32,155 nt of DNA from Acidobacteriaceae bacterium (lineage in GTDB: Bacteria > Acidobacteriota > Terriglobia > Terriglobales > Acidobacteriaceae). Position numbers and translations under genes: made by a program. The stretch is from positions 1-32,155 of the forward strand of contig PMYE01000041.1 of the NCBI GenBank assembly GCA_003171315.1. Reading direction: 5' to 3'. Position 1 is the stretch's first letter. Every line of letters begins with the position of its first letter. The notes below the pieces were generated by a model that saw only the letters and a list, made by a program, of their open reading frames with translations, was not told the origin of the DNA and did no database searches. Positions 13,431-21,144 of this stretch are shown here, one piece after another.

Positions 13431-13793
13431 CTATGCTCGCTTTTGTAGTTTGCTCATCATTGCAACCAACATTCGGCTTACTTCCTCTGAAAGCTCTCCC
13501 GCCGTTTTGCGCGCGGACGCACTGCCAAAACCGAGTCCATCTGCAATGACGAGCTGCGTTTGGACCTCGAAATTTGAGCCCCGCGCGTGGCCAAGAAAGA
13601 GAAGATACTCTTCTCGGCTTGATCTGCCGTAACCTTCAGCGATGTTGCTTGCGACAGAGACGGATGCGCGGCGTAGTTGATTGGTCAGGCCAAATCGCTC
13701 GGAGTCCGGGAACGAAGAAGTGAGTTTGTAGATCGCTAAACTCAACTGAATTGCTCTCTGCCATACCACCAAGTCCTTGAATGAATCGCCCAT
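13431..13793 (-). CDS. S23-family four-helix-bundle protein, copy A
   Basis: A 120-residue member of the S23 or four-helix-bundle family (TIGR02436 type), first known as the product of 23S rRNA intervening sequences and related in fold to the Avd accessory protein of diversity-generating retroelements. Diagnostic blocks are FKDLVVWQRAIQLSLAIYKL (5-24), FGLTNQLRRASVSVASNIAEG (34-54) and EEYLLFLGHARGSNFEVQTQL (61-81). Relatives form basic multimers thought to bind nucleic acid; the function is unknown. ATG 13793 is chosen for its AGGAAGGAA ribosome site. It lies 16 nt after the small membrane-protein gene, and the two are likely co-transcribed. About 70% identical to copy B at 20736 (84 of 118 aligned positions by eye). 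Confidence 0.9.
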   Translation of the reverse strand: MGDSFKDLVVWQRAIQLSLAIYKLTSSFPDSERFGLTNQLRRASVSVASNIAEGYGRSSREEYLLFLGHARGSNFEVQTQLVIADGLGFGSASARKTAGELSEEVSRMLVAMMSKLQKRA

Positions 13794-14133: not shown

Positions 14134-14171
14134 TGCGTTTGGACCGTGAAGCTAACCTACCACAGAAACCC

Positions 14172-14199
14172 TGATCCCTGTTCCCTGATCCCTGTTCCC
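14172..14199 (+). repeat. Four heptamers alternating TGATCCC and TGTTCCC
   Basis: The units run TGATCCC, TGTTCCC, TGATCCC, TGTTCCC. On the minus strand they become GGGAACA and GGGATCA, complementary to the TGTTCCC array at the other end with one mismatch in every second unit. The array begins 7 nt after the CPBP protease stop codon. Confidence 0.9.
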
Positions 14200-14206
14200 T
14201 GCTTTC

Positions 14207-19658: not shown

Positions 19659-20642
19659 ATGCGCATGGGATGGAGAGGTTGGACAGTTACAGTGGCCTTG
19701 CTGCTGGCGCCATGGGCAAGCCGTGCGGCAACCTGCACTTCGCAGGCCGAAATGGGGACGCTGGACCGCGAAGCGCTGGCGGCGGCCGCGGGCCGCATGG
19801 CGAACGCAGTGTTGGGACAGAACTTTGCAGCGCTCCAGGCCGATCTGTTGCCCCAGGAAGCGTCGGAGTGGGAGGGCATTCGCGCGGCGGTAGAACAGGC
19901 TGCGCCGCTGGTCAGGGGCGGGCAATTCCAGTTGCGAGACGTGTATCTGCTGGACGCGAGCAACCAGACCGCGCCGGCCGACACGCAGTTCTTCTGCTCG
20001 AACTCGTCGGGGTCGCTCACCGTGACCATCACCATGAGCGCGCTACCCCCTGGGCGTTACGCCGTTGTGCTGGCCGATGCGGTGGGCGCGCCGCTGGCCG
20101 GGCAGATGGGGCTGGTTCTGGCCTGGGATAGCGCCGCGACCGCATGGAAGCTGGCGGGGTTGACGGTGCGGCCTGGAATCTTCGACGGGCACGACGGCGT
20201 CTGGTACTGGGTGCGCGGGCGGGAGCTGGCCAAGGTGGATCCGTGGAGCGCGTGGTTCAGCTACGACGCGGCGCGCTACCTGCTGTTGCCGGTGGACTTT
20301 CTCTCTTCGCCGAATCTGGAAAAGCTGCGCCAGGAACAGTCGCTGATCGCGCCGTCGCCGCAGAGCGCATTACCGTTGTCGCTTCCCGATGGCGACCGCA
20401 CGTGGAAGATCGAGGCGGTGGTTCTCGATCCCTCGCTGCACCAACCCGACCTGGCCGTGGTGTATGAATCGACCGGCGTGACCGATCCTGCAGCTTTGCG
20501 AACGGAGGCGACCGCCGTGATGAGCGCATTTCTGAAGACGCAGCCGGGGATCCGGGCAAACTTCCATGGGCTGTGGGCGTATGCGGAGAAGGATGGCAAG
20601 CGCACGCCGGTGATGGAGCTGCCGATGAAGGAGATTCCGTAA
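19659..20642 (+). CDS. Secreted protein of unknown function
   Basis: About 327 residues. A basic start and a hydrophobic segment (WTVTVALLLAPWASRAATC) form a signal peptide. The mature part has two recognisable stretches but no family that I know: an N-terminal helical region (REALAAAAGRMANAVLGQNF) and a beta-rich middle with SGSLTVTITMSALPPGRYAVVL and the sequence GLVLAWDSAATAWKLAGL. Cysteines in CTSQAEM and FFCSNS could pair in the periplasm. The start is uncertain: ATG 19659 is 12 nt after GGAGGGG, while ATG 19647 touches it and ATG 19665 is also possible. It is divergent from the STN-like gene, and S23 element B begins 5 nt after its stop. Confidence 0.65.
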   Translation: MRMGWRGWTVTVALLLAPWASRAATCTSQAEMGTLDREALAAAAGRMANAVLGQNFAALQADLLPQEASEWEGIRAAVEQAAPLVRGGQFQLRDVYLLDASNQTAPADTQFFCSNSSGSLTVTITMSALPPGRYAVVLADAVGAPLAGQMGLVLAWDSAATAWKLAGLTVRPGIFDGHDGVWYWVRGRELAKVDPWSAWFSYDAARYLLLPVDFLSSPNLEKLRQEQSLIAPSPQSALPLSLPDGDRTWKIEAVVLDPSLHQPDLAVVYESTGVTDPAALRTEATAVMSAFLKTQPGIRANFHGLWAYAEKDGKRTPVMELPMKEIP

Positions 20643-20647
20643 AGGCA

Positions 20648-20675
20648 GGGAGTAGGGAGTAGCCAATAGGGAGTA
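20648..20675 (+). repeat. Heptamer array GGGAGTA (three exact, one degenerate)
   Basis: The units are GGGAGTA, GGGAGTA, GCCAATA and GGGAGTA in register. This is the 5' end of element B. Confidence 0.9.
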
Positions 20676-20735
20676 GGACGCTACGATCCTGCATGAGCTG
20701 TTCGCGCCATGCGGGCAGGAAATGAAAGAGGGAAT

Positions 20736-21092
20736 ATGGCAGGCTCATTTAGGGATCTCATCGTATGGCAGAAGGCGGTCGAACTCAGCCTTGGGATTTA
20801 CAAGCTTACGGCGTCGTTCCCGCAGTCCGAGCAGTTCGGTTTGACCAATCAGTTGCGACGTGCTTTAGTCTCCATCGCAAGCAACATTGCAGAAGGGTAC
20901 GGACGATCCACGAAAGGCGAATATCTTTTGTTTCTTGGTCATGCCAGAGGTTCGAACTGCGAGGTGCAGACGCAGCTCGTTATTGCAGGGGGATTGGGAT
21001 TCGGTTCGGAGCCAAAGCGGCAAGCCGCGGAGGGCCTCTGCGATGAGATCGGCAGGATGCTCGTCGTGATGATGAAGAGGTTGAGGGCGTAG
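20736..21092 (+). CDS. S23-family four-helix-bundle protein, copy B
   Basis: A 118-residue homologue of copy A with the same blocks: FRDLIVWQKAVELSLGIYKL, FGLTNQLRRALVSIASNIAEG and EYLLFLGHARGSNCEVQTQL. Most of the differences fall in the last quarter. The four predicted helices and many Arg/Lys residues fit the basic, nucleic-acid-binding bundle known from Avd and from rRNA intervening-sequence proteins. ATG 20736 is chosen for its AAAGAGGGA ribosome site; ATG 20709 is less likely. It is the only gene in element B. Its expression probably depends on read-through from the upstream gene, since no promoter is seen in the 60 nt between array and start. Confidence 0.9.
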   Translation: MAGSFRDLIVWQKAVELSLGIYKLTASFPQSEQFGLTNQLRRALVSIASNIAEGYGRSTKGEYLLFLGHARGSNCEVQTQLVIAGGLGFGSEPKRQAAEGLCDEIGRMLVVMMKRLRA

Positions 21093-21101
21093 GTCACTTT
21101 C

Positions 21102-21122
21102 TACTCCCTACTCCCTATTCCC
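21102..21122 (+). repeat. Heptamer array TACTCCC, TACTCCC, TATTCCC
   Basis: This is the 3' end of element B. A fourth, broken unit (TATTC) follows to 21127. It is complementary to the GGGAGTA array at 20648; the TATTCCC unit would pair with one mismatch, which becomes a G-U pair in RNA. Confidence 0.9.
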
Positions 21123-21144
21123 TATTCAAGAAAGGCGCAATAGC

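Follow-up and report, generated by a model that had tools for sequence, protein, structure and literature searches.

An S23 gene together with the two inverted arrays of short-period repeats that enclose it probably constitutes a single mobile DNA element without a known transposase, a reading to which we assign a probability of roughly 0.68. Two such elements were considered in a window of 32,155 nucleotides (i.e., the whole stretch of DNA that was analyzed), corresponding to one contig of the 3.29-Mb, approximately 91% complete genome of an Acidobacteriaceae bacterium (designated G000 in the comparisons below). The S23 family (TIGR02436, PF05635) is widespread and, to our knowledge, has no known function. 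The first of the two window elements and its surroundings comprise the following features:

20641 to 20646, no strand: AAAGGC, left direct-repeat copy, abutting the left array on its outside
20647 to 20677, plus strand: left array, unit (T)AGGGAG, AG strand forward, five AG steps
20709 to 21092, plus strand: S23 (four-helix-bundle) ORF, open from the ATG at 20709
21101 to 21127, minus strand: right array, CT strand forward, reverse complement of the left array
21131 to 21136, no strand: AAAGGC, right direct-repeat copy, outside the right array

The left array reads AGGGAGTAGGGAGTAGCCAATAGGGAGTAGG and is imperfect, with one of its units (AGCCAAT) deviating from the others, while the right array reads CTACTCCCTACTCCCTATTCCCTATTC, the sequence TACTCCC beginning at 21102, 9 nt past the S23 stop codon (21090-21092). 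In profile searches, the S23 ORF scored 117.4 bits with PF05635 and 112.4 bits with TIGR02436, with the start of the family fitting the ATG at 20736, which is preceded by GAGGGA and would yield a protein of 118 residues. The left AAAGGC copy overlaps the TAA stop codon of the upstream gene (20640-20642), and the AAAGGC pair is possibly a target duplication, albeit one not beyond chance expectation. The second window element lies on the minus strand and is organized as follows:

14169 to 14201, minus strand: left array, units CAGGGAT and CAGGGAA
13810 to 14133, minus strand: ORF of 107 residues between the left array and the S23 gene, a passenger
13431 to 13793, minus strand: S23 gene, PF05635 118.8 bits
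13378 to 13421, plus strand: right array, AGGGAAC repeated 6.3 times on the plus strand

Here, the family start fits the ATG at 13793, with the longest ORF reaching 13850 with a TTG start. The 107-residue ORF is membrane-like, and presented no Pfam or NCBIfam match in profile searches. No target duplication was seen flanking this element. As the initial annotation had stated, no transposase is present: family searches detected none among the three ORFs that the window elements contain, with two matching only the S23/Avd families and one matching nothing. The families matched name no catalytic function, which counts against the mobile-element reading.

The enclosure of both genes by complementary arrays, as claimed earlier for the first element and, with a different heptamer, for the second, was confirmed by random placement. 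Arm-to-arm ungapped complementarity scored 32 in the first element and 56 in the second, as compared to maxima of 22 and 25, respectively, in random placements; none of 3,000 placements of the same geometry in the window reached the score of either element. Folding of the RNA corresponding to positions 20640-21130 gave a predicted energy of -194.5 kcal/mol (z -4.77 relative to 100 shuffles), with the right array predicted to pair with the left array as a basal stem. As judged by eye, the arms of elements match as families and not unit for unit. Since the succession of variable letters in one arm is not a unit-wise mirror image of that in the other (also by eye; locus L002 is an example), any stem would be imperfect.

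A search with PF05635 revealed five S23 genes in this genome, all five of which are enclosed by complementary short-period arrays upon inspection by eye. The units correspond to GGGAGTA, to GGGAACA/GGGATCA, to a mixture of GGGAGTA and GCCAGTA, to AGCTNCT (at an S23 gene lying between sucC and sucD) and to the 9-nt unit GTTAGCGGN (at an S23 gene lying between accB and accC). Given these differences, neither sequence nor period is fixed; what is fixed is the mirrored layout. The S23 gene associated with the composite arrays that mix GGGAGTA and GCCAGTA (L005; G000:C24:3105-3419) contains two in-frame TGA codons. No rRNA match was obtained in the window or in the other S23-containing stretches of this genome (L085, L086 and L087). 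A match to Acido-Lenti-1 RNA (RF01687) barely over the cut-off was seen at positions 7297-7342 of L087, on the contig of the broken S23 copy.

The same layout recurs well beyond this genome, with PF05635 being present in 32 of 41 searched genomes. From relatives, 93 distinct elements were fetched and 92 were scored for the best ungapped match between the 220 nt upstream of the gene and the reverse complement of the 220 nt downstream. The median score was 38.5 (n = 92), as compared to 17 in 600 intervals placed at random within these loci (99th percentile, 25; maximum, 40), and 71 of the 92 elements exceeded the 99th percentile of those intervals. Some low scorers, such as the second window element, fail because an array lies past 220 nt. 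Shuffled pairs of upstream and downstream regions likewise gave a median of 17, with a 99th percentile of 40 that is high because some elements share a unit family. The earlier statement that heptamers change while their complementarity is kept thus holds among relatives, as it does in the co-variation of arms described below.

In named genomes, where one genome per species was considered and the best 80 loci were taken from a scan for S23, S23 matches were found in Acidobacteriota, Bacillota, Bacteroidota, Fibrobacterota, Myxococcota, Planctomycetota, Pseudomonadota, Thermodesulfobacteriota, Verrucomicrobiota and others. At these best 80 loci, complementary arrays accompanied 66 of 81 S23 matches (27 of 29 in Acidobacteriota and 39 of 52 elsewhere) with a threshold set at the 99th percentile (24) of 640 controls, that is, a 1% control rate; a few loci are counted twice and some Acidobacteriota overlap the set of relatives. 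No rRNA was found at 11 low-scoring named loci. On viral contigs, 39 of 46 S23 loci scored above 24, the sample having comprised 47 loci, some near-duplicates, with one being dropped due to a short flank; a single viral-contig S23 used as query matched no phage record. At 12 loci on cyanobacterial plasmids read by eye, mirrored arrays were seen in most, with some being weak or mixed. In Nostoc edaphicum, an S23 gene enclosed by arrays of the window unit TAGGGAG lies between nrdB and nrdA. At L014 and at L327, the latter from Pseudanabaena, long arrays run in the same direction on both sides of S23 and are not inverted.

Across 173 elements, a period of 7 was seen in 94 of 120 upstream arrays and 103 of 130 downstream arrays, followed by periods of 8, 9 and 6. 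The arrays are polar. Read on the gene strand, AG prevailed over CT in register in 102 upstream arrays versus 7 (11 ties), while in the reverse complement of the downstream array, the corresponding values were 99 versus 12 (19 ties). Outside Acidobacteriota, AG likewise prevailed over CT in 30 versus 3 arrays upstream and in 28 versus 4 downstream. The ends of the element accordingly have the symmetry of terminal inverted repeats, with the AG strand pointing inward at both. In arrays of period 7, runs of AG most often have a length of 4 or 5, these lengths being represented by 20 and 20 arrays upstream and by 26 and 31 downstream.

The position of the elements relative to genes was addressed using 53 elements for which two arrays and long flanking sequence were available. 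In 42 of these, an open frame on the same strand terminates at the left array, and in 46, one could begin past the right array; both apply in 38 of the 53, as opposed to 19 of 265 random placements. Opposite-strand frames touch the element on the left in 18 cases and on the right in 24, which partly reflects the abundance of long spurious frames in this GC-rich DNA.

The two arms of an element change in concert. For 35 elements with an orthologue at the same site, the mean similarity between arms within an element was 0.66, as compared to 0.33 between an arm and the same arm of the orthologue, with similarity within exceeding similarity between in 30 of the 35 (Wilcoxon p = 3.7e-5). At the sucC-sucD junction, for example, TAGCT is found in both arms in some species, while in G009, both arms contain CAGCT. 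The array unit is tied more closely to the S23 protein than to the site. Among 78 pairs from different sites with proteins at least 70% identical, 48.7% share array 5-mers (above 0.3), whereas only 1.0 to 4.1% of different-site pairs below 60% protein identity do so; in same-site pairs at 45 to 50% identity, array 5-mers are shared in one of nine. In a Mantel test of unit versus protein (75 elements), 0 of 999 permutations reached the observed value. The S23 tree groups by site, calling for 12 changes for eight sites versus 30.7 when shuffled, and, by eye, also by unit family. Because the unit tracks the protein and the tree groups in this manner, protein and arrays travel as one unit.

Presence at each junction is patchy. 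Of 17 same-genus sucC-sucD junctions read by eye (G006 being cut and G010 not found), 5 contain S23, 11 are bare, with sucC and sucD nearly or truly overlapping, and one (G016) presents a weak array that scores only 6, below the threshold used. At 18 atpA-atpG junctions, S23 was found in 5, S23-less inverted pairs from several unit families in 7, bare spacers of 8 to 30 nt in 4, a single array in one and a long spacer with a trace of an array in one; G003 was counted as having S23 although its upstream gene lies off the contig, and a second G016 atpG copy (L364) was excluded. At the sites of the window elements, a motif search over 1,000 nt detected S23 in one of 18 same-genus loci in each case, the same upstream gene being present in 17 of 18 loci for the threonine aldolase site and in 14 of 18 for the pyrE site. 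G019 also carries S23 at pyrE, as found in the first search but outside the 1,000-nt motif count. By eye, at the first window site, at least 9 of 17 others contain S23-less arrays immediately past the stop codon of the upstream gene, while S23-less inverted pairs occupy the second in G002, G003 and G016. On a genome tree of six partial proteins, with 9 of 16 inner branches drawn open and absence meaning that no S23 was found in genomes of which some are incomplete, the fewest changes needed are 4 for sucC-sucD (5 of 17 present), 5 for atpA-atpG (5 of 17) and 6 for pheS-pheT (9 of 19).

Insertion could be read at the level of single bases in related cyanobacterial conjugative plasmids. At site A, in the trb operon, S23 is carried by Trichormus variabilis and Scytonema but not by Aulosira, Nostoc carneum, N. 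linckia or Microchaete, with the Trichormus plasmid being 96 to 98% identical to the four bare plasmids on both sides. In all, the eight plasmids comprise two filled sites, four bare sites, one truncated copy (a truncated S23 in Nostoc C052 pE) and one S23-less hairpin. The empty site reads AAAAAGTAATTAACAAAT, while at the filled site, the element, which runs from AAATCAG to TTCTTT, is preceded by AAAAAGTAAT and followed by GTAATTAACAAAT; the 5-bp duplication, GTAAT, contains the upstream stop codon. The hairpin, found in Brasilonema octagenarum pBOCT2 (L467, at approximately 1190-1290 of the locus), is compact and of the AGGAGTC type.

At a junction in a different operon, termed B1, nine plasmids comprise two filled sites, one interrupted S23, five bare sites and one with another ORF. 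In Nostoc ATCC 53789 pNsp_a, the filled site reads GGTTCTA, the element and TTCTAGTTATG, as compared to GGTTCTAGGTTATG in the bare pNsp_c and C057 pH plasmids, with the three other bare plasmids differing at few bases. With an identity of approximately 89 to 99%, the pieces share an overlap of exactly 5 bp, TTCTA; C052 pD, the other filled plasmid, has TTCTG as its right copy. Of the plasmids read, pNsp_c alone carries an element at the adjacent junction, B2; this element has a different unit, and its duplication is not perfect (TAATG versus TTATG, 3 bp exact). Sites C and D offered no overlap and no readable junction. The three Nostoc sp. ATCC 53789 plasmids with related operons (L331, L473 and L474) have S23 at B1, at B2 or not at all. 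Clean 5-bp duplications were seen at two sites, both cyanobacterial and with similar arrays. When 123 elements from all sets were considered, shared words of at least 5 bases outside the arrays were in slight excess (40 versus 31, p = 0.037), while those of at least 6 bases beside the arrays numbered 8, as compared to 7.9 expected from shuffled pairs. In our view, the weakness of this test reflects the indistinct borders of the arrays and the age of most insertions, so it is the plasmid pairs that carry the claim of duplication. With filled and empty alleles, duplications at the two plasmid sites and no rRNA found, the proposal of the initial annotation that this is a mobile element outside rRNA gained support.

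Arrays also occur without S23. In sampled stretches, 46 S23-less arrays were found in 494 kb of G000 (approximately 93 per Mb) and 10 in 400 kb of G002, as compared to 3 and 1, respectively, after block shuffling. Most of these stand alone; near inverted pairs number one in G000 and four in G002. The expectation voiced earlier that arrays would keep company with S23 genes hence failed, given some 93 S23-less arrays per Mb versus five S23 genes, whereas the accompanying expectation that S23 sites would have empty alleles held. In 154 S23-less arrays from 21 genomes (G000 supplying 61), a match to S23 arrays of the same genome was seen in 43.5%, versus 15.1% for other genomes (0 of 4,999 permutations), although the own-genome match fails in eight genomes (G001, G002, G007, G010, G016, G017, G018 and G026). 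G002, a single contig, has one S23 gene of the AGCT type, yet its S23-less arrays are mostly of the CAGTG type. At least 9 of the 10 G002 arrays lie within 20 kb (L286; G002:C1:1600001-1620000), several being compact inverted CAGTG hairpins. By a crude test, 14 of the 46 solo arrays in G000 lie outside open frames of at least 150 residues. Of 46 solo arrays with polarity, 13 present the AG strand and 7 the CT strand behind a stop codon, 10 further arrays having been set aside.

Such arrays resemble heptamer repeats already described. These are over-represented in bacterial genomes with no accepted cause, and two Xanthomonas genomes contain 70 and 75 inverted pairs (PMC4692102); dispersed heptamer repeats are also reported in Beggiatoaceae (PMC4679880). 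The Xanthomonas, Nostoc and Beggiatoaceae repeats (GGGAATC, GGGGATT and TAACTGA) share with S23 elements their dispersal and their 7-nt units, but are not connected with S23 in the available portions of their descriptions, where they are reported as mainly intergenic, unlike the G000 arrays. In the open-access papers searched, no account joining S23 genes to heptamer arrays was found.

The S23 protein is predicted to fold with a mean pLDDT of 96, and the domain model matches the Xanthomonas XCC0516 structure (2gsc) with a TM score of 0.95; the next structural matches are a Bacteroides protein (2rld) and the diversity-generating retroelement (DGR) protein Avd (4dwl and 8ub7). The 2gsc structure is reported to comprise five four-helix bundles in one assembly (Lin et al., 2006, as cited in PMC10053308 and PMC3936711). 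Orthologous S23 pairs gave dN/dS values of 0.11 (L022-L027), 0.07 (L003-L069), 0.04 (L078-L081) and 0.10 (L078-L082), with synonymous sites near saturation in the latter three pairs; 0.07 is the value for S23 of the second window element and its same-site orthologue in G019. The median over 193 countable pairs, mostly non-orthologous, was 0.32. These values indicate that S23 is under purifying selection; retention at one site over long divergence at 0.04 to 0.11 is not required of a purely selfish insertion and counts against the mobile-element reading. When 41 genomes were searched for reverse transcriptase (PF00078), no match was obtained in the near-complete, S23-bearing G004, G009, G018, G025 and G039, while in G000, two matches exceed the cut-off, both being on contigs that do not carry its S23 genes. 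Dependence on reverse transcriptase was therefore rejected, and such an enzyme seems unneeded for S23 elements.

In the scheme that we propose, the arrays would serve as the ends of the element, the counterpart of terminal inverted repeats, with fixed polarity. Insertion occurs chiefly at junctions within operons, either at the stop codon that ends the upstream gene or close to it, and was accompanied by a 5-bp target duplication at the two plasmid sites. The S23 ring most likely binds AG steps of its own arrays. Such binding would account for the unit following the protein and for the likeness of the arms, and bound S23 would bring the two ends together. S23 could be the mobility factor itself or else a specificity subunit that recruits a host enzyme, moving the element by itself or together with a host nuclease or replication enzyme. 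Homogenization of the arms would follow were one arm to template the other. S23-less single arrays and compact hairpins would be remnants or non-autonomous copies, as proposed because their units tend to match S23 arrays of the same genome, even if in 8 of 21 genomes they do not.

Several other explanations can be considered. A system serving the host at the RNA level, in which the S23 ring would bind AG arrays in junction mRNA and control or protect the transcript, with movement being old and incidental, is an unlikely alternative. TRAP, which binds (G/U)AG repeats, offers an analogy. The strong purifying selection, the same-strand genes adjoining both sides, the AG-run peak at 4 and 5 alongside a relative reported to comprise five four-helix bundles, and the predicted stem would all suit such a system, while it is at odds with the patchy presence at each junction, with plasmid insertion accompanied by a 5-bp duplication and with the fact that sense RNA displays the AG strand only in the left array, as opposed to DNA, which does so at both ends. 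That the dispersed arrays would be targets of S23 in such a system is likewise doubtful. A transcript-level role is, nonetheless, compatible with the predicted fold and with purifying selection, and may coexist with movement. The intervening sequences (IVSs) of rRNA present a related case, in that RNase III would cut the stem from the transcript so that an insertion having entered operons by an RNA route would be tolerated. The same protein family and stem-plus-ORF layout are found in rRNA IVSs (PMC4990558), S23 is also reported in insertions in 16S and 23S rRNA of CPR bacteria (PMC11270868), and a basal stem is predicted here. However, no rRNA was found in the stretches of this genome or at the 11 low-scoring named loci, the five S23-bearing genomes noted above lack PF00078 matches, with the two in G000 lying on other contigs, and 5-bp duplications fit a staggered cut in DNA, making this origin quite improbable.

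It could also be that the arrays move or expand through an unrelated host enzyme, with S23 being cargo that takes no part in movement. Arrays are, after all, far more common than S23, S23-less inverted pairs occupy the same junctions and the own-genome match is absent in 8 of 21 genomes. Yet a single gene family fills the place of cargo in many phyla, and the unit does track S23 sequence across sites, such that we hold this explanation to be improbable as well. Arrays being common, heptamers might finally be thought to arise everywhere by slippage and to pair around S23 by coincidence. This source of the pairing was rejected in view of the control rates, the polarity, the concert of the arms and the recurrence across phyla, and is barely credible.

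Returning to the reading of S23 gene and arrays as one mobile element, known systems can be compared. In REP/REPIN sequences with RAYT, a transposase gene lies between inverted repeats and solo copies are dispersed. S23 elements similarly place a gene between inverted repeats, and in 13 of 21 genomes, S23-less copies resemble the S23 arrays found in that genome, but no transposase domain was matched in the window elements and the ends are heptamer arrays rather than REP palindromes. By analogy, the S23 element would work most like REPIN/RAYT. Classical insertion sequences share the target duplication, of 5 bp at plasmid sites A and B1, but not the absence of a transposase gene among the ORFs of the window elements. 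Compact S23-less inverted pairs at junctions look non-autonomous, as do MITEs, but end in tandem arrays and have no known parent transposase. DGR Avd has the same fold as the S23 model and a weak profile match, but Avd models score below cut-offs on the window ORFs and several S23-bearing genomes present no PF00078 match. In the 23S rRNA IVSs of Leptospira and Coxiella, long suspected of being mobile, an S23 ORF lies inside complementary ends (PMC4990558). S23 elements likewise encode a PF05635 protein between complementary ends able to form a predicted stem, but lie at operon junctions, with ends that are tandem arrays, mostly of 7 nt and of fixed polarity; with no rRNA match in the S23 stretches of this genome, these are not rRNA IVSs. 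Judged by such sequence features, S23 elements are neither rRNA IVSs, insertion sequences or RAYT, nor DGRs or other reverse transcriptase-based elements.

More tentatively, and with clearly less than even odds, S23 elements could be a bacteria-wide class in which a pentameric ring reads approximately five (Y)AG steps at a 7-nt spacing and moves or copies the element by some chemistry that rebuilds one arm from the other, such elements being the source of the Nostoc, Xanthomonas, Beggiatoaceae and Acidobacteria heptamers and of S23 genes in cas operons. If true, one type of element would join the S23 family, the mobility of rRNA IVSs and heptamer repeats, rendering each testable. S23 elements may, as such, explain the scattered 7-base repeats of many bacterial genomes.

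The same proposal, if true, would call for caution in reading cas-operon S23 genes as CRISPR parts. Eighteen S23 genes in cas operons have been reported (PMC3936711), and the family has been named among CRISPR-linked genes (PMC10910872). Going by their arrays, S23 genes in cas operons may be insertions and not CRISPR components. Plasmid S23 genes are flanked by cas6 and cas4, or else by cas10 and a cmr3-like gene, in Anabaena sp. 90 (L332), Picosynechococcus sp. PCC 7003 (L329) and Pseudanabaena galeata (L327). As seen by eye, the arrays are inverted in the first two and direct in Pseudanabaena galeata.
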